Part shown: piece after piece, positions 38,293-46,551 of the stretch
Layout: every line of letters begins with the position of its first letter
Position numbering within the stretch: position 1 is the stretch's first letter
Assembly: GCA_018268255.1 (NCBI GenBank)
Contig: JAFDWX010000002.1
Coordinates: 62,001-126,000 of the forward strand
Source: Armatimonadota bacterium
GTDB lineage: Bacteria; Armatimonadota; Fimbriimonadia; Fimbriimonadales; Fimbriimonadaceae
Reading direction: 5' to 3'
Length of the DNA stretch: 64,000 nt
Notes under the pieces: model-generated
Databases searched by the model: none
Seen by the model: the letters and a program-made list of their open reading frames with translations, nothing else
What the model was told of the DNA's origin: nothing
Made by a program: the position numbers and the translations under genes

Positions 38293-39251
38293 ACGGGGAA
38301 ATGGAGGGAATGAAGCTCTTCTGCGGTAACGCACACCGAGAGCTGGGGTTGCGCGTGGCGGAGCACCTCAACATTGAGCTTGGGCAGATAACGTCGACAC
38401 AGTTTAGTGATGGCGAAATTAGGGTCCTCGTCGATGAGAGTGCGCGAGGAAACGACATCTTCCTCATTCAGCCAACGTGCCATCCCGTCAACGATACGCT
38501 GATGGAGCTTTTGGTGATGTTGGACGCCTTCCGACGGGCCAGTGCCCGCCATATCACCGTGGTGATGCCTTATTACGGATATGCGCGCCAGGACAAGAAA
38601 ATCAAACCTCGTGAGCCGGTCACCGCGAGGCTCGTTGCCGACCTGATTACGGTCGCGGGAGCCCAGCGAGTCGTGTGCGTCGATCTCCACGCAGAACAGA
38701 TTCAGGGCTTTTTCGACATGCCCGTGGACCATCTCTACGCTGGTCCCATTATTGGGGACTTCCTTTTGCGAGAAGGCTTCGACAATGATGACGTGGTCGT
38801 GGTGAGCCCCGATGTCGCTGGTGTGAGTCGAGCAAGATCCTTGGCCGAAATGCTCCACACTCCGATCGCGATCATCGCCAAGAGACGCCCTGAGCCCAAC
38901 AAGGTCGATATCGTCGAGATTATCGGTGACGTCAACGGAAAGACGTGCGTCATGATCGATGACATGTGCGATACGGGTGGCTCGGTGATTATGGGTGCCG
39001 AGGCTCTCAAAAAACGCGGCGCCCGAGAGGTCATCGTCACTTGTACTCACCCGGTGCTCAGCGGAAATGCGGCGCAGCGTATCCAGGATTCGGTGATCTC
39101 GAAGTTCATTTGCACGGACACACTTCCCATTCCCGCCGCGAAAATGGTGCCGAAGATGAAAATCCTACCGATCGCTCCACTGGTCGGGGAAGCGATCCGG
39201 CGGATCCACCTTAACGAATCGGTAAGCACATTGTTCAAGGAATGGCGATAG
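38289..39251 (+). CDS. prs: Ribose-phosphate pyrophosphokinase (PRPP synthetase)
   Basis: About 320 residues from ATG 38289, which overlaps the glmU stop (ATGA); ATGs at 38301 and 38310 are alternatives. It begins MKLFCGNAHRELGLRVAEHL, then FSDGEIRV, the flexible loop PYYGYARQDKKIKPREPVTA, the cation-binding DLHAEQIQGFFDMPVDHLYA, VVSPDVAGVSRAR and the PRPP-binding VMIDDMCDTGGSV. It makes PRPP for nucleotide, His and Trp synthesis. Coupling to glmU is common in Firmicutes and other bacteria. Confidence 0.96.
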   Translation: MNGEMEGMKLFCGNAHRELGLRVAEHLNIELGQITSTQFSDGEIRVLVDESARGNDIFLIQPTCHPVNDTLMELLVMLDAFRRASARHITVVMPYYGYARQDKKIKPREPVTARLVADLITVAGAQRVVCVDLHAEQIQGFFDMPVDHLYAGPIIGDFLLREGFDNDDVVVVSPDVAGVSRARSLAEMLHTPIAIIAKRRPEPNKVDIVEIIGDVNGKTCVMIDDMCDTGGSVIMGAEALKKRGAREVIVTCTHPVLSGNAAQRIQDSVISKFICTDTLPIPAAKMVPKMKILPIAPLVGEAIRRIHLNESVSTLFKEWR

Positions 39252-39688
39252 AGGGCGTTGAGCCACTGGAGTGGACCATCAGAGTGGGCAACGAGGCGGC
39301 CGGTAAGCGAGTCTTCGTACTGATCATGGCTTTGGGAGCTGGACTGGCTGGGTTCCTCCTGTTGCGGTCACCACTGGCTGGAATTGCGGGCACGGTTTTG
39401 ATCCTTGCCAGCGTCTCGGAGGTGTTTTTGCCGCAGCGCTTCCGTCTTGATTCGCAGGGAGCCTCTGCGAAGGTGGGATTGTCTATGACAAACATCCCGT
39501 GGCAGGACGTTAAGAGGCTATGGGAAGATGAGAAGGGGGTATTGCTCTCTCCCTTTGCGGAAAAGCACCGCATGAACGCCTTTCGAGGGGTCTATCTTAG
39601 GTTCGACAGCAACCGAGACGCCGTATTGGCTAAAATTCGCACACTCTGGGAAACGAATGGAACAGTTTTGGACCGAAGCGCTGAGTGA
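39242..39688 (+). CDS. Hypothetical membrane protein with two helices
   Basis: 148 residues, starting 10 bases before the prs stop. Two adjacent hydrophobic helices (about 23-42 and 45-65) in the first half are followed by a soluble domain with alternating beta strands (RFRLDSQGASAKVGLSMTNI, WQDVKRLWEDEKGVLLSPF, GVYLRFDSNRDAVL). This 2-TM plus beta-strand layout resembles bacterial PH-like membrane proteins, but no firm family match can be made. The gene runs into the small gene at 39657 with a 32-base overlap and appears to be the first member of the membrane cluster that follows. Confidence 0.65.
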   Translation: MAIEGVEPLEWTIRVGNEAAGKRVFVLIMALGAGLAGFLLLRSPLAGIAGTVLILASVSEVFLPQRFRLDSQGASAKVGLSMTNIPWQDVKRLWEDEKGVLLSPFAEKHRMNAFRGVYLRFDSNRDAVLAKIRTLWETNGTVLDRSAE

Positions 39689-39965
39689 AGACAAAGCGGA
39701 TGCGCTACTGACCAAAGTCGCTGATCAAATCAAGCGGCGCAAAATGGAAGTGCCTGCTGTTTTCTTCCTGGAAATGCACAAGCCTCTGGCGAATGTCGGG
39801 GCGAGCGCAACCTTAGCATTTTCTCCCTTTATCATTCCATTCATCGGATTTGACGCTGTGAACGACTATTCGAATCTCATGCGCAAACGCGAGAATTGGG
39901 AACGACTAATTCAATTGTTAGAGGATAAGACGACGAAGTCTGCCCTCGAGGAGCCATCTGCCTAA
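39657..39965 (+). CDS. Small conserved-looking protein of the membrane cluster
   Basis: 102 residues. Amphipathic helices at the N-terminus (ALSEDKADALLTKVADQIKR) lead to a conserved-looking core PAVFFLEMHKPLANVGASAT, a hydrophobic hairpin FSPFIIPFIGFDAVNDYSNL and a charged helix RENWERLIQLLEDK. I believe similar proteins with an FFLEMHKPL core occur in Armatimonadota, Acidobacteria and Planctomycetes, but I cannot confirm it here. No enzymatic motif. Membrane association is likely. It overlaps its upstream neighbour by 32 bases and the next start by one base. Confidence 0.6.
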   Translation: MEQFWTEALSEDKADALLTKVADQIKRRKMEVPAVFFLEMHKPLANVGASATLAFSPFIIPFIGFDAVNDYSNLMRKRENWERLIQLLEDKTTKSALEEPSA

Positions 39966-40921
39966 TGCAGTATTACGACAAAGGTTGGTTTGGGGTGCTT
40001 GCGACGGTCCTCGTCGTGGGATTTATCCTTGTCATGATCCAACGGGCCAAGCGGCACGAAGGGAACTTGTTTATTCGGCGAATTGCCGGCTTGAACGCGA
40101 TCGACGAGGCGATAGGCCGCGCGACTGAGATGGGTCGCCCAGTGGTGATGGTCCCCGGTATTGGCGGACTCGACGCGATCGCTGTTCAGGCGATCAACAT
40201 CTTCGCCAAGGTTTGCCAAACAGCAGCGCGATTCGCCACTCCGATCAAGCTGTGTTGCGCCGATCCGGCCGTATACGCGGTGGCGCAGGAGACAATCCGG
40301 GACGTGTATCAGCGCGAGGGAGTTATCGAGCGCTTCGAGACCGACTCGGTGCAATTCGTTAGTGATCGCCAATTTGCGTTTGCCGCGGGCGTAGCGGGCA
40401 TCATTCAGCGTGAAAAAGTTGCTGCTGCGTTTTTCCTCGGTGCATTCTTTGCTGAATCGCTCATTTTTGCAGAATCGGCCAACGCGATGGGTGCGATTCA
40501 AATAGCTGGCTCCACGCAAACGACGCAGACGCCGTTTTTTGTTGCCGCGTGCGACTACGTCTTGATTGGCGACGAATATTACGCGGCGAGCGCCTACCTA
40601 ACTCGCGAACCGATCCTTATCGGCAGCCTGTTGGGTCAAGACTACTCAAAGATTTTCTTTGCCGCGCTGATCACTCTTGGCTTCATCACTGTTTCGTGCG
40701 AACGAAGCTTCACCAAAGCGACCGGCGAATTCAAAGAGGGCAAATGGGTTGCTCTAGAAAAGGAGCGCACCAAAGGTCCGGGCGACACTTTTATGTCTAT
40801 GTGGTTTAACCCCCAATCCATCCCTGAAGCAGAGAGCAAAGTCGAGCGGCCCCAACGCGAGAAGAACTGGTGGGAAGAAGGCGGCGGTGATGCTGCTCCG
40901 GCTGCGGGAGGTGGCGAATGA
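39965..40921 (+). CDS. DUF6754-like membrane protein
   Basis: 318 residues. An N-terminal membrane helix (about 8-24) is followed by FIRRIAGLNAIDEAIGRATE and MGRPVVMVPGIGGLDAIAVQ, a soluble Rossmann-like segment (ATPIKLCCADPAVYAVAQE), QFAFAAGVAGIIQREKVAAA, FFLGAFFAESLIFAESANAM, GAIQIAGSTQ, FFVAACDYVLIGDEYYAASA and a second hydrophobic helix near 220-240. The pattern matches the uncharacterised DUF6754 family found in Thermotogae, Chloroflexi and Dictyoglomi. The C-terminus is cytoplasmic-like, ending in a Gly/Ala/Glu-rich tail. No known activity. It overlaps the next gene as ATGA. Confidence 0.7.
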   Translation: MQYYDKGWFGVLATVLVVGFILVMIQRAKRHEGNLFIRRIAGLNAIDEAIGRATEMGRPVVMVPGIGGLDAIAVQAINIFAKVCQTAARFATPIKLCCADPAVYAVAQETIRDVYQREGVIERFETDSVQFVSDRQFAFAAGVAGIIQREKVAAAFFLGAFFAESLIFAESANAMGAIQIAGSTQTTQTPFFVAACDYVLIGDEYYAASAYLTREPILIGSLLGQDYSKIFFAALITLGFITVSCERSFTKATGEFKEGKWVALEKERTKGPGDTFMSMWFNPQSIPEAESKVERPQREKNWWEEGGGDAAPAAGGGE

Positions 40922-41820
40922 ACCTTTTGGCTCTGCAATGGAGCTTCCGGCCGGAAGACTCCACTAAGTGGACCTACCTCATCGTCGCCGCAATCATCGG
41001 CTTTGCGTTTATGTTTGCGTTGAGTCGCGTTCCGACGCGTATGCGACGAGTCGTGGTTGGGACGTTCACATTCCTTTCCGGTCTGTTCTACGTTCTGCTT
41101 TACATTTGGCCGCAACCGATCGACAAAAAGCCTCTGGATATTCCCCAAGGTCCCGTCGAATCTGTTGGATTCCTTCTGCAGGATATGGTTCCGGTGGTCA
41201 AGGACTTCACCAGTATCCTCACCGCGTTCCTACTGGGACTGGGCGTGTACTCGCTACTCCGAGTTCATATTGGAAGGGTCGCCCGCCGCCAGCGAGACTG
41301 GCAATACTCAGGCCTCCTGCTGCTCTGCATGGCCACCATGCTCACGATCGGCTACTGGGACTTCTTTATGCAGTCCGCCAATAAGGCAGTCGACTACAGC
41401 GATCGCGCCAACTGGACCACGGCTCAATACGGCTTTGATTTACTGTTCGACGGAATGCTGCAGCAAATGGACGCGGCAATGTTTTCCATCATCGCGTTCT
41501 TCATCCTTTCGGCAGCCTACCGGGCCTTTCGAATTCGGTCGATTGAAGCGACGATCATGCTGGGGACGGCTTTGATTCTCATGTTGAGTCTGATGGGAAT
41601 TGCAAGCTACTTTACAGACTGGCTGTTCGTTCAGAAGCTCGCGGGAGGGAACGCCAACGCGTTTGTCGGAAATTTCACCCTGGCCGAAATATCGAACTGG
41701 ATTAAAAATAACTTCCAAGTTCCCAGCTTGCGAGCGATGGAGTTTGGGATCGGAATCGGAGCGCTCGCAATGGGACTGCGAATTTGGCTTAGCCTGGAGC
41801 GGGGAGGAGTAAGCGCATGA
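40918..41820 (+). CDS. Multi-spanning membrane protein of the cluster
   Basis: 300 residues with about six membrane helices (roughly 20-38, 45-62, 92-112, 130-148, 178-200, 213-235) and one more near the C-terminus. No transporter signature or conserved charged motif is recognised. Hydrophilic loops carry DFFMQSANKAVDYSDRANWT and TDWLFVQKLAGGNANAF. It sits between the DUF6754 protein and the next membrane-anchored protein, each joined by an ATGA overlap, so the proteins are likely made in matched amounts. Function unknown. Confidence 0.6.
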   Translation: MNLLALQWSFRPEDSTKWTYLIVAAIIGFAFMFALSRVPTRMRRVVVGTFTFLSGLFYVLLYIWPQPIDKKPLDIPQGPVESVGFLLQDMVPVVKDFTSILTAFLLGLGVYSLLRVHIGRVARRQRDWQYSGLLLLCMATMLTIGYWDFFMQSANKAVDYSDRANWTTAQYGFDLLFDGMLQQMDAAMFSIIAFFILSAAYRAFRIRSIEATIMLGTALILMLSLMGIASYFTDWLFVQKLAGGNANAFVGNFTLAEISNWIKNNFQVPSLRAMEFGIGIGALAMGLRIWLSLERGGVSA

Positions 41821-42794
41821 GCCAACCAGAACGCAATTGGGTGGAGAAACTTTCGGGTGCCAAGCCCACCACTCTCTATATGCTTTTGATCGTCGTCAGC
41901 GCGATCTTCCTGTTCATCAAGTATCAAATCCCGGTCAAGCCGGATCCTGAATCTGTTGATCTTTACGCGAGGTTGGCGACGTTGCCCAAGGACAGGCCCG
42001 TTCTGGTGCAAAGCGACTGGACGAACTCGTCGCGAGGCGAGAGCGCGGGCCAGTTCGAAGCTCTCATGCGGATCCTGATGGACAACGAAATCAAGTTCGT
42101 GATCTATAGTGCTGCCGATCCTCAGGCGCCTCAGGTGGCTCGCAATGTCATCCGATTCATCAACGAGGAGCGAAAGGCAGAAGGGAAGGCACCCTACAAG
42201 GTCTGGGAGAATTACCTGGACTGCGGCTACTTCCCGAATGCGGAAGGCATGGGCCAGGCGATGAAAGCCAACCTGCGCAATGCCTTCAGCAACAAGAAGA
42301 ACCGAAAACCGGACGGAACCGACGCCGACATCTGGGAAAGCCCGGTTCTCGCTGGGGTGAAATCGATCAAGGACATTCCGCTCTTGGTAAACGTGACCGC
42401 CAGCGCCACCATCGACGTTCTCATCGAACGTCTGGGAGGGCAAGTCAATCTCGGATTGATGTGCACCGGAGTTATGTCGCCCCAAATGGTCCCGTACTAT
42501 GCTTCCGGTCAGCTCAAGGGATTATCAGGAGGACTTAAGGGTGTTTACGATCTCGAATGGATGATGAACTACGGCATCCGCGGAGATCAGGTGCCCAACG
42601 ACCCGAGTCTCCCGAACCGCGCCGTCTGCAAGTCCAACTCGACCATCGATGTCAAGCCCTTGCAGGGGACCACGTTCTCGCGAGGGGCTTCCTACTATTT
42701 GTCATTGCACGCAGCGCTCACGCTGATGATCCTAGCGGTTGTAGCCGGCAACCTATCGCTGATCTCGGCTCGGATTAAGGCGAGGAAGGGCTAA
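41817..42794 (+). CDS. Membrane-anchored protein with large soluble domain
   Basis: 325 residues. A helix at about 20-36 (LYMLLIVVSAIFLFIKYQI) and one at about 297-317 bracket a soluble domain of 250 residues with a Rossmann-like look: RPVLVQSDWTNSSRGESAGQ, EALMRILMDNEIKFVIYSAA, PQVARNVIRFI, IPLLVNVTASATIDVLIERL and GLMCTGVMSPQMVPYYASGQ. Both termini cytoplasmic would place the domain outside. Elements such as the 'nostril' loop around LKGLSGGLKGVYDLEWMMNY may be the substrate or partner site. No homology to a characterised enzyme is apparent. ATGA overlap upstream, 5 bases to the next gene. Confidence 0.6.
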   Translation: MSQPERNWVEKLSGAKPTTLYMLLIVVSAIFLFIKYQIPVKPDPESVDLYARLATLPKDRPVLVQSDWTNSSRGESAGQFEALMRILMDNEIKFVIYSAADPQAPQVARNVIRFINEERKAEGKAPYKVWENYLDCGYFPNAEGMGQAMKANLRNAFSNKKNRKPDGTDADIWESPVLAGVKSIKDIPLLVNVTASATIDVLIERLGGQVNLGLMCTGVMSPQMVPYYASGQLKGLSGGLKGVYDLEWMMNYGIRGDQVPNDPSLPNRAVCKSNSTIDVKPLQGTTFSRGASYYLSLHAALTLMILAVVAGNLSLISARIKARKG

Positions 42795-42799
42795 CCATC

Positions 42800-43522
42800 A
42801 TGTATGAAAAGATAAAACTGCTCATCGGCGCGGTGGCAACGATCGGCCTCTACAGCGTTCTCTACCGGGAAAACAAGTTCTACCGGTTCGTAGAGCACAT
42901 GTTCCTTGGCCTTGCCGCGGGTTACACCCTCGTGGCCGTTTGGAAGGAAACTCTGAAGGTCCAATGGTGGGATCGCATGGTGGGGACAGCAGGCGATGCT
43001 GGCAGCCCGGGCACTCCAGGTTTCTGGGCCTTCATGTTCCTGCTTCCCATCGGCATGATGGGCTACATGGTCTTCAACAAGAAGCACAACTGGATGAGCC
43101 GAATACCCATTGGAATCATCCTGGGATTTTGGTCTGGACAGCAGGTACAGATATTCTGGAGCAAATGGGGCGGCCAGTTGTTTAACTCCATGAAGCCCTT
43201 GATTCCGACGGGCGGAGCTTTCGTGCCGTCGACGGATGGATTGACTCCGGAGCAGATGGCAGAAGTCGGTCGGACGGTGTACGTCAGTCAGGCTGTGAAC
43301 AACATCATCTTCACCGTAACCATCCTTTCCGTCCTCAGCTACTTCTTCTTCAGCTTCGAACTTAAAAACAAGTTCATGTTGGGGATGAACAAAACCGGAC
43401 GGTGGCTCTTGATGATCGGCCTCGGTGCCATTTTTGGTTCGACTGTTATGGCTCGATTCGCGCTTGAAATCGACCGGATGAGCTTTATCTTTGTGGAGCT
43501 TGTGAAGGCACTCCGCACCTAA
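42800..43522 (+). CDS. Multi-spanning membrane protein closing the cluster
   Basis: 240 residues with about five or six helices (about 5-22, 35-52, 75-92, 98-115, 175-195, 207-225). Loops contain YRENKFYRFVEHMFLGLAAG and VSQAVNNIIFTVTILSVLSY. GRTVYVSQAVNNIIF resembles no family I can name. It begins 5 bases after the previous gene, so it completes a six-gene run of membrane or membrane-associated proteins (39242-43522); recO follows 7 bases later in the same direction. Function unknown. Confidence 0.6.
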   Translation: MYEKIKLLIGAVATIGLYSVLYRENKFYRFVEHMFLGLAAGYTLVAVWKETLKVQWWDRMVGTAGDAGSPGTPGFWAFMFLLPIGMMGYMVFNKKHNWMSRIPIGIILGFWSGQQVQIFWSKWGGQLFNSMKPLIPTGGAFVPSTDGLTPEQMAEVGRTVYVSQAVNNIIFTVTILSVLSYFFFSFELKNKFMLGMNKTGRWLLMIGLGAIFGSTVMARFALEIDRMSFIFVELVKALRT

Positions 43523-43529
43523 TCGGAGC

Positions 43530-44270
43530 GTGGCCGAACAAACCGTAACTGCGCTCGTAGTCAGTCGCCGGGATAGCGGAGAATCCGACCGGCGACTGAC
43601 GCTGTTAACTAGGGAGCTTGGCCGGGTCGAGGCAGTCGCCAAGGGTGCCCGCAAGGGCGGCTCAAGGCTTGCGGGAAGCTCTGAACCGCTCGTGTGTGGG
43701 CAATATCAGCTTGCTCCCGGAAGACAGACCACCTTCATCACCCAGGTTCAAGTCCACACCTCATTCCCGGGTCTTCGGGCAGACTACGAAAGGCTGACCC
43801 TTGCATTGGCCCTCACTCAGGCTGTGGCCGCATTCGCCGAAGACCCGACACTTGCAGCAGAGAATTTCGATCTTCTATTAAGAGGGTTGAACCTATTGGA
43901 GCACCATTCCAATCCCCTTCTGGTGTGGCTGTGGTCGATGCTTCATGCACTCGAACTAGAAGGTGTGATGGCGTCCTTCCTAGAGTGCGTTGATTCAGGC
44001 GAGCAGATCCGCGAAAATCCGGTGCTCGTATCTCCAACGGCTGGGGGCCTGGTTTCCAGGGCTGCGGCGAACCAGTATGTCGATGCCTATCCAGCCCTCG
44101 CCGAGGCTTGCATCGGGTTGGGGAAGCTTGCGGAACTCAACTCGCCTCCGAATGTGATGAAGCACGCGAAAGAGGCATTTTTTGTGCTCGCACCCATTGT
44201 GCGGTACCAGGCCCACAAAAACCTACCCGCTATGGATGCCGCATCCAAATTGGTTCAAGAGCTTCCTTAG
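43530..44270 (+). CDS. recO: DNA repair protein RecO
   Basis: 246 residues from GTG 43530. The N-terminal OB-fold is clear: VTALVVSRRDSGESDRRLTL, LTRELGRVEAVAKGARKGGS, RLAGSSEPLVCGQYQLAPGR. The helical C-domain follows (NFDLLLRGLNLLEHHSNPLL, ELEGVMASFLECVDSG). The zinc-binding four-cysteine cluster of many RecO proteins is reduced to a single Cys near 151. RecO with RecR loads RecA on SSB-coated DNA. Its position directly behind the membrane cluster is probably operon read-through. The stop overlaps the convergent gene by 4 bases. Confidence 0.9.
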   Translation: MAEQTVTALVVSRRDSGESDRRLTLLTRELGRVEAVAKGARKGGSRLAGSSEPLVCGQYQLAPGRQTTFITQVQVHTSFPGLRADYERLTLALALTQAVAAFAEDPTLAAENFDLLLRGLNLLEHHSNPLLVWLWSMLHALELEGVMASFLECVDSGEQIRENPVLVSPTAGGLVSRAAANQYVDAYPALAEACIGLGKLAELNSPPNVMKHAKEAFFVLAPIVRYQAHKNLPAMDAASKLVQELP

Positions 44271-45367
44271 CTGCCTTTTTGCGACTGCATGTAGAAGTAA
44301 ATGCAGACGCCCACCACGATGAGGCCGAGAATCGTTGCGATCAGGACCTTCCAGAAGCTGATTGGTGCGGACCCTTGAACTTCGCCCGTTCGGCCGTTGA
44401 CGAGGACCTGATACGGCTTGGTCCGGTAACGATAGGCTCCCGAATACATCGGCAGCAACAAGTGCTTGAATGTGCAGTTGAGATACTCTGTCGATTTCGA
44501 GTGAATCTGCTGCTCATCGCCCCCGATATCGGCACAGATTGCCGAGTCGATTCCTGGCTGCATGAACGTCTGCGCCGTGGCCCACCCAGATTTGAGGTCG
44601 ATGTCATACAGCTGAGTCTGGAAACCTGCTACGAAGCTCTCTGTGTAAGGTGCAGCTGCGGCCAAATCCCAGTTCTGAAGTCTCTGACCGTACTTCATCG
44701 GGATCTCCTGGCTTGCAAGAACGAGAACGTCGTCGAAAGGCACTTCTACCGTGCCCGAGGCTGGGTACCACCGCGTCTTCATCACCTGGCGAGTTCTGGT
44801 TACGGATTGGCCGTTCTCGGTGGTTGTGTAGGTCTCGGTTTCCCAGTAGTGCTCACCTCTGGCACCTGTGTAGTGGGTGATGGTGTACGAGTCGAAAGTC
44901 CAGTAGGGGATATACATCCCGCGAAGTTTGCCTTCCTTAAGCGCGAGCTTCTTTAGGTCATTCGGTGCCCAGAATCTTGACCCGAGCCAATCATTCATTT
45001 TGGCTCTCGCTTGGAGATCTGTCAGGAGGAAAGGAAGGACGCCGTTCGGTGGAATCCTTGAGCCTTTCGTTGTCTCTTGGACTACTTCGGACCCACAGAA
45101 TGGGCACTCTTGCGTTGCTCGGTTTTCGTGCGCGGTAAATACTGCTCCGCATCCTTTGCACCGCAATTGCTGCGCTTCTACAGGTTCTGGCGTTAACTCC
45201 TGCTTGTCGAAATAGGCTTCTAGCGGAAGCTCGTCAACGGTGGCTGTGCTGGGAGCTATGTTCTGCTCGAATCCGCAATAGGGACAGACCATGTGGGTGG
45301 TCCCGGGCTTGAACTGGAGTTCAGCCCCACATTGCGCACATGGAAATCGAACTAGAGCGGTCGACAA
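44267..45367 (-). CDS. Zinc-ribbon protein with C-terminal membrane helix (SPFH partner)
   Basis: 366 residues from a TTG at 45367. Two zinc ribbons are visible: CAQCG...CPYCG at about 10-31 and CKGCG...CPFCG at about 70-91. A long mixed domain follows (PYWTFDSYTITHYTGARGEH, TRQVMKTRWYPASGTVEVPF, DDVLVLASQEIPM, NWDLAAAAPYTESFVAGFQT) and one membrane helix ends the protein (about 341-361). Proteins of this shape, with a TFIIB-type ribbon at the N-terminus, occur beside SPFH-domain genes in many bacteria, as here: the SPFH gene lies 89 bases upstream on the same strand. They have no assigned activity. Confidence 0.75.
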   Translation of the reverse strand: MSTALVRFPCAQCGAELQFKPGTTHMVCPYCGFEQNIAPSTATVDELPLEAYFDKQELTPEPVEAQQLRCKGCGAVFTAHENRATQECPFCGSEVVQETTKGSRIPPNGVLPFLLTDLQARAKMNDWLGSRFWAPNDLKKLALKEGKLRGMYIPYWTFDSYTITHYTGARGEHYWETETYTTTENGQSVTRTRQVMKTRWYPASGTVEVPFDDVLVLASQEIPMKYGQRLQNWDLAAAAPYTESFVAGFQTQLYDIDLKSGWATAQTFMQPGIDSAICADIGGDEQQIHSKSTEYLNCTFKHLLLPMYSGAYRYRTKPYQVLVNGRTGEVQGSAPISFWKVLIATILGLIVVGVCIYFYMQSQKGS

Positions 45368-45456
45368 CTTCGGTTATTCTTGAGCACAAGTCGCCGGGAG
45401 CGGGGAACCCGGAGAATTCCCCGCCTATCCCGGACGCGGTAAGAGACATCCGACAT

Positions 45457-46551
45457 TTACTGAGGAGGAAGCGGCGGCGGAACGCTTCCGAAAAGTGCCT
45501 TGATGACATCGACTTCAGAGGCTTTCTTCCACTCGGGCATTCCTGCAGTCCAAACCAACGTGTCTGGATGGAGCGTACTGCCGATCATTCCTTTGAGCTG
45601 GTCCACCGTGAATGGTCCGTGCTGGGATCCATCGATAGCCAAATGGAACTGCACTCCGGCTGGGACCGGAGGAGGAGCTTGTCCCCCTGCTGCCGGCTGA
45701 TTAAAGGCTCCTTGCATTGCCTGGCCCATGGCCGCACCAACTCCCATCCCGATGCCAGCCGCGCCCAAGCCACCGGGATTTTCGGCTGCTTTTTCCATGG
45801 CATTGGCCGCTTGGAACTGCGTGTAGGCCTGAAGATTGCCCACTGCACCCATGCTGGACCGCTTATCGATGGCGGCTTCCACTTCCTCGGGCACGGAGAC
45901 GTTCTCGATTCGGAAGTTGAGGAGTTCGATGCCGACTTCCTTCATTCCCGGAGCAACTGAATCGAGAAGTGTCGCTCCAAGATCGGAATATTTGGCGGCC
46001 AAGTCGATTACAGGAATCTGGGCTTTGGCAACGCCCTCGGCAAACGAGGAGACGATCTGGTTGCGAATATGCTCCTGGACCTCCTCCACGGTGAACTGCC
46101 AATCGGTTCCAGCCAATTCGCGAAGGAACGTGGCGGCGTCGCAGACCCTCATGGCATAGGTTCCAAAAGCTCGGACTCGCACGATGCCAAAATCCTGATC
46201 CCGCATCATTACGGGATTGGATGTGCCCCACTTGAGATCCGTAAATCGCTTCGTATTGACGAAATACACCTCGGCCTTGAACGGACTGTTGAATCCGTAT
46301 TTCCAGCCTTTCAGGGTCGTGAGAATCGGTAGGTTTTGGGTCTCGAGTTCGTATCGGCCCGGCTCAAAAACGTCGGCGATTACGCCTTCGTTGACAAACA
46401 CAGCAACTTGAGACTCTCGGACGGTGAGTTGAGCACCATATTTAATCTCGTTGTTGTGTCGCTCGAAGCGATAGACGATAGTGTCTTGGGTGTCGTCGAG
46501 CCATTCGATAATATCGATGAACTCGCCCCGGATTTTGTCAAAAATGCTCAT
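45457..46551 (-). CDS. SPFH/Band 7 protein with C-terminal GYF_2 domain
   Basis: 364 residues. The SPFH core runs from about residue 20 to 230: DTIVYRFERHNNEIKYGAQL, VRESQVAVFVNEGVIADVFE, PGRYELETQNLPIL, RAFGTYAMRVCDAATFLREL, EVQEHIRNQIVSSFAEGVAK and the C-terminal ELLNFRIENVSVPEEVEAAI. A Gly/Ala/Pro/Gln-rich linker leads to a GYF_2-like domain, FHLAIDGSQHGPFTVDQLKG and HPDTLVWTAGMPEWKKASEV, ending in PPPLPPQ. The protein is like Bacillus YdjI: a raft-like scaffold assembling on the membrane. It is upstream of the zinc-ribbon gene and shares 85 bases of divergent promoter with mqnD. Confidence 0.88.
   Translation of the reverse strand: MSIFDKIRGEFIDIIEWLDDTQDTIVYRFERHNNEIKYGAQLTVRESQVAVFVNEGVIADVFEPGRYELETQNLPILTTLKGWKYGFNSPFKAEVYFVNTKRFTDLKWGTSNPVMMRDQDFGIVRVRAFGTYAMRVCDAATFLRELAGTDWQFTVEEVQEHIRNQIVSSFAEGVAKAQIPVIDLAAKYSDLGATLLDSVAPGMKEVGIELLNFRIENVSVPEEVEAAIDKRSSMGAVGNLQAYTQFQAANAMEKAAENPGGLGAAGIGMGVGAAMGQAMQGAFNQPAAGGQAPPPVPAGVQFHLAIDGSQHGPFTVDQLKGMIGSTLHPDTLVWTAGMPEWKKASEVDVIKALFGSVPPPLPPQ

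Follow-up and report, generated by a model that had tools for sequence, protein, structure and literature searches.

A DUF6754-centred membrane gene cluster of Armatimonadota as part of a candidate ATPase-coupled membrane system

In a 64,000-nucleotide stretch of an Armatimonadota bacterium genome (contig JAFDWX010000002.1; the whole stretch is referred to below as the window), the genes prs and recO flank six + strand genes at 39242-43522, here p1 to p6, and the question raised by this locus is whether these genes belong together and, if they do, what kind of machinery they would encode. A preliminary description of the DNA had proposed a single undescribed membrane complex, and this proposal is supported by the present analysis, since p3, p4, p5 and p6 follow one another in this order across about a dozen phyla and the block is duplicated as a unit. 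The operons of relatives additionally carry genes for a MutL-like ATPase and for a protein with weak barrel-sandwich matches (BSH), which means that the window holds part of the system only. The reading favored here, which we consider about evenly balanced between right and wrong, is that of an ATPase-coupled inner-membrane machine, either transporter-like or acting on the envelope, with ligand-binding domains on both faces of the membrane; the complex and its partners are the well-supported elements of this reading.

Layout of the cluster and conservation of its order

All six open reading frames are present and were found again at the positions first reported for them, together with their overlaps and the two ATGA sites:

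p1, 39242..39688, + strand: open reading frame; two N-terminal transmembrane helices followed by a soluble domain of ~80 residues
p2, 39657..39965, + strand: open reading frame of 102 residues with an FFLEMHKPL core and a single hydrophobic stretch
p3, 39965..40921, + strand: DUF6754 protein; transmembrane helix, predicted cytoplasmic Rossmann-like domain (~39-221), transmembrane helix
p4, 40918..41820, + strand: polytopic protein (5-6 transmembrane helices in the family) with conserved SAAYRAFR and C-terminal ERG segments
p5, 41817..42794, + strand: transmembrane helix, predicted extracytoplasmic alpha/beta domain (41-~265), transmembrane helix
p6, 42800..43522, + strand: polytopic protein (4-6 transmembrane helices in the family) with conserved segments of the SFLYRDNxFYxxAEH type and GxxxTVMAR

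The overlaps amount to 10 bases between prs and p1, 32 between p1 and p2, 1 between p2 and p3 (TAATG) and 4 each between p3 and p4 and between p4 and p5 (ATGA at 40918 and 41817), with gaps of 5 bases between p5 and p6 and of 7 between p6 and recO; the overlapping of the genes may point to coupled, stoichiometric synthesis. The FFLEMHKPL motif lies within p2, and QIAGSTQ and ACDYVLIGDEYYAASAYLT lie within p3. The resemblance of p3 to DUF6754, which had been suspected from the letters, turned out to be full membership, with a Pfam match to PF20539 at 296.9 bits (E 1.3e-88; cut-off 27) that spans residues 10-249 of p3 and positions 13-252 of the 257 in the profile, and the genome holds a single DUF6754 copy. 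Hydropathy of the window's proteins gives two helices for p1, 6-7 for p4, 3-5 for p6 and two helices flanking ~250 residues for p5, which agrees with the initial picture of a two-helix p1, polytopic p4 and p6 and a helix-bracketed p5 domain. The label of a membrane cluster has to be qualified for p3, which consists of a soluble domain of ~200 residues between single N-terminal and C-terminal helices, a build like that of p5.

The remaining proteins are nearly devoid of family matches. Neither Pfam nor NCBIfam gives an accepted match for p2, p4, p5 or p6, and p1 resembles YcxB/bacterial-PH-like proteins at a sub-threshold level only (Pfam, E 0.018); no Pfam family is common to the relatives of p5 (n = 81), of p4 (n = 24) or of p6. 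Profile-profile comparison of p2-p6, MutL and BSH found no homology between subunits, and p3-p6 searched by sequence against solved structures showed no relative standing out. A plasmid or phage origin was rejected (p3 is without a match in plasmids or phages, and p2-p6 are without a match in PHROGs), as was a role in anti-phage defense, for which PADLOC gives no match to p2-p6, MutL or BSH.

Gene order was counted in the best 80 loci among at least 581 relatives from a scan of species genomes, and because these are the most similar 80, with some genomes repeated, the counts show a pattern and not a rate across all bacteria. Within them, p4 directly follows p3 in 88 of 97 cases and p6 follows p5 in 81 of 85 (several exceptions being contig ends), p5 follows p4 in 83 of 88 (4 exceptions being at contig ends), and 81 complete p3-p4-p5-p6 modules, on one strand and in one order, occur in 71 loci. 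The sources include Armatimonadota/WS1, WOR-3, Poribacteria, Latescibacterota, Nitrospira, Cloacimonadota, anammox planctomycetes, Zixibacteria, Edwardsbacteria, Fermentibacter, Coatesbacteria and Methylomirabilis. Within the phylum, a comparison of 20 regions, made with a crude gene caller that missed some members, shows the p1-p6 families recurring in the window's order, also away from prs and recO. Homologues are thus adjacent and in the same order, not scattered, and since both the order and the families recur in distant phyla, the cluster is not a product of chance. Apparent p4-p5 fusions in loci L113 and L156 were rejected, p5 having been extended there out of frame.

The extent of the system differs from the six genes first proposed. 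In many lineages the MutL and BSH genes sit between p2 and p3, the two being linked to the cluster in 20 or more loci of other lineages; in the 80 loci MutL follows p2 in 16 of 17 cases, BSH follows MutL in 20 of 24 and p3 follows BSH in 26 of 28, which gives an ancestral-looking operon of p2-MutL-BSH-p3-p4-p5-p6. Judged by gene order, the core is p3-p6 with MutL and BSH, usually accompanied by p2. Relatives of p1 occur mainly in Armatimonadota and near relatives (Armatimonadota, WS1-type genomes and one Latescibacterota operon).

The four module genes also duplicate together. Eight loci carry two to three p3-p6 modules in tandem in which the four genes diverge together, with distances among the four proteins correlating at r 0.82-0.89; in such multi-module loci the closest module judged by p3 is also closest judged by p4, p5 or p6 in 254 out of 378 comparisons, where 174 would be expected, and in L104 and L135 the copies correspond one by one for all four genes. 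As a rule, MutL and BSH are single-copy, which makes it attractive to suppose that one energizing pair may be shared by several modules. In genomes holding two DUF6754 loci, second-copy p4 proteins carry a large extra N-terminal region (L073:5769-7379, 536 residues; L075:7776-9491, 571 residues), one of these regions being weakly glycosyl-hydrolase-32-like (beta-propeller-like).

Soluble partners and predicted folds

The MutL-like partner is a protein of ~600 residues whose match to PF13941 covers almost the full length of the profile (E 5.8e-131). The copy of the window's genome lies outside the window (G000:C2:146977-148809, 56% identity to an operon copy), keeps the ASKHA motifs DCGSTTTK, GVDIGGATTD and GSGG as judged by eye, and in a tree sits among the operon MutLs of other phyla, well away from two outgroups of the GlmL type (support 0.98). 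A second, MutL-like type of ~920-950 residues forms a separate branch in genomes of Fermentibacteraceae and Cloacimonadota (L147:17480 and L206:1159-4020). BSH, of ~375 residues, was found in 31 of 31 relatives, own genome counted, and the own copy is again outside the window (G000:C3:347884-348993, 45% identity to an operon copy). Its matches to biotin/lipoyl and RnfC_N barrel-sandwich domains are weak, and the own copy stays below the Pfam cut-offs; pentatricopeptide matches were set aside as most likely low-complexity.

DUF6754 and MutL are also inherited together. Among good Armatimonadota genomes, DUF6754 is present in 181 of 194 and MutL in 183 of 194, and DUF6754 is found in none of 14 control genomes. 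Across 291 Armatimonadota genomes, raw counts give 39 without DUF6754, 30 without MutL and 20 without both, where about 4 would be expected (hand count), so that the two are co-lost within the phylum. The shared absences include G149 and G150 (1.5 Mb, 97% complete), which belong to a single genus of the window's own family and have lost both, as well as two whole sampled families (f6 and f8); joint absence from small, near-complete genomes and from whole families implies that incompleteness is not the sole cause. Outside Armatimonadota the distribution is clade-limited, e.g. in Nitrospirota, where DUF6754 and MutL occur in an identical 8 of 61 genomes and the others have neither, and MutL was present in 16 of 16 genomes tested via DUF6754 loci of other groups.

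Structure prediction adds a view of the two bracketed domains. The model of p3 (predicted local distance difference test, pLDDT, 85.4; predicted template modeling score, pTM, 0.75) contains a domain at 39-221 that is predicted to be Rossmann-like, aligning best with Sir2 (Z 12.0, root-mean-square deviation, rmsd, 3.6, 143 residues). Next come transhydrogenase domain III (Z 10.1) and ACDS epsilon (Z 9.8), each at rmsd 3.1 over 137 residues, and we take all three to have the DHS-like NAD/FAD-binding fold. The model of p5 (pLDDT 88.2, pTM 0.85) has ACDS epsilon as its top match (Z 8.6, rmsd 3.1, 143 residues), and because this is barely over background, a fold common to p3 and p5 is merely suggested. 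Foldseek gave no match at E <= 0.001 for either protein, and its rows titled as G protein-coupled receptor structures most likely reflect artefacts of fusions or helices. Unlike the proteins that they resemble in predicted fold, p3 and p5 are anchored in the membrane at both ends and have no sequence match to them. Rossmann-like domains bind ligands just after strands, and the invariant polar and glycine residues in the alignments of p3 (G57/G65, Q136, G159/E164, Q179/Q188, C196-D197-Y198, G202/E204) and p5 (E75, V219, Q232, G235, G239, G242, E247 and N312 being the invariant positions) fall just past predicted strands.

The two domains are predicted to face opposite sides of the membrane. Positive-inside counts of lysine and arginine are 4.3 after the first helix of p3 against 1.5 before it, which places its domain inside, and 3.8 after the last helix of p5 against 2.1 before it, which places that domain outside. 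In other phyla a signal-peptide-like start and FN3 domains precede the first helix of p3, which fits the inside location of its domain.

A proposed mechanism and its rivals

In the mechanism that we propose, p4 and p6 would form the membrane-embedded core, p3 would present its Rossmann-like ligand-binding domain to the cytoplasm, and, outside the cytoplasmic membrane, p5 would carry another alpha/beta domain, which may share that fold. The MutL-like ASKHA ATPase would dock via BSH as an adaptor onto the cytoplasmic face of p3 and drive a conformational cycle of p3-p6, by which a ligand recognized by p3 inside and by p5 outside might be moved or remodeled. The wider proposal, that a GlmL/MutL-clade ASKHA ATPase acting through a barrel-sandwich adaptor energizes a four-subunit membrane module that has a Rossmann-like domain on either side, tandem modules perhaps serving different ligands, and that this represents a new class of machine, is offered tentatively, as a possibility towards which we do not yet lean.

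It has to be noted that several points weigh against the proposed machine. No transporter family or solved structure was matched by p4 or p6; both soluble partners are encoded in the window's genome apart from the cluster; the co-occurrence counts ignore kinship and genome incompleteness; we infer ATP hydrolysis by this MutL clade from motifs only; and the gene data are explained equally well by a structural or signaling role that involves no transport. The physical complex, the ATP coupling and the transport are likewise what we infer.

The main rival, rather unlikely in our estimate, is envelope sensing or signaling, in which p5, together with the FN3 domains of p3 elsewhere, would sense the extracytoplasmic state and relay it via p4 and p6 to the p3 domain, with MutL and BSH as a nucleotide-dependent switch whose output goes to a response regulator or to roadblock-type regulators. 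It owes its rank to the OmpR/PhoB-type response regulator found directly after BSH in 27 of 30 relatives' loci (L173-L202; own copy L166:9964-10671, on C3) and to the additions in WOR-3-type loci, where a DUF4388 protein and two further proteins, roadblock-like by eye, are encoded after p6; a response regulator also comes after p6 in the WS1-type loci L088-L090. However, the adjoining regulator varies or is missing in most phyla, and the roadblock assignment is without Pfam support. In the WOR-3/Stahlbacteria loci L112:10060-12995 and L099:12859-15704, two small membrane proteins complete the genes after p6.

A redox or NAD(P)-linked complex resembling transhydrogenase or RNF, with p3 binding a dinucleotide and BSH serving as an RnfC-like docking subunit, appears improbable. 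The top structural matches of p3 are all of dinucleotide-binding-type folds, but a common fold shows no ligand. As regards the proton-translocating transhydrogenase, p3 has the predicted fold similarity to domain III given above and no Pfam match to that domain. The RnfC_N match of the own BSH reaches 15.5 bits, which is under the curated gathering cut-off of 25.6, and no RNF or NQR neighbors were noticed, nor any iron-sulfur or flavin motif in the six proteins; moreover, the partner is an ASKHA ATPase and not a dehydrogenase.

The named members of PF13941 are GlmL mutase accessory proteins, which raises the idea that MutL reactivates a cobalamin-dependent mutase at the membrane, the membrane genes acting as its scaffold. 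This is very improbable, as the genome of the window (G000) has no glutamate mutase E subunit (PF06368) and no mutase gene was noticed next to the operon. The partner matches PF13941 and keeps ASKHA motifs as GlmL does, but it has ~600 residues against ~460, forms a clade well apart from the two GlmL-type outgroups and, in other phyla, has its gene among those of membrane proteins; the operon homologues scored against the NCBIfam GlmL models (NF040745, TIGR01319), namely L081 at 226 and L080 at 209 with the own copy not among them, fall below the cut-off of 475. The analysis covered gene order and sequence, which leaves some room for unrelated membrane genes that merely share an operon, but this is scarcely credible, given an order that stays constant across these phyla amid differing surroundings and given the en-bloc duplication.

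Neighbors, novelty and meaning

Two further neighborhoods were observed. In eight Nitrospira loci (L110, L142, L143, L148, L156, L158, L161 and L163) p6 is followed by a protein of ~420 residues that is Memo/AmmeMemoRadiSam B-like by eye. In the window itself, at 44267-46551 on the - strand, two proteins are encoded side by side, of which one has a zinc ribbon and a membrane helix at its C-terminus and the other is SPFH-like with a GYF-like domain at its C-terminus (both as judged by eye).

In the open-licence literature searched, no paper was found on DUF6754 or PF20539, and none that describes such an operon or connects MutL with one. Above the cut-offs, only p3 and the MutL partner match named families in the window's genome, and only one membrane part has even a DUF number. 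Pfam assigns no function to DUF6754, of which p3 is a full member, and its entry omits the partner genes.

Being near-universal in Armatimonadota and kept in fixed order in phyla that include Nitrospira and the anammox bacteria, the system probably does something basic. As a defined gene set whose partners are mostly single-copy it is directly testable, and, if the proposal is true, a clade of proteins now named glutamate mutase MutL would be reassigned to a membrane machine.

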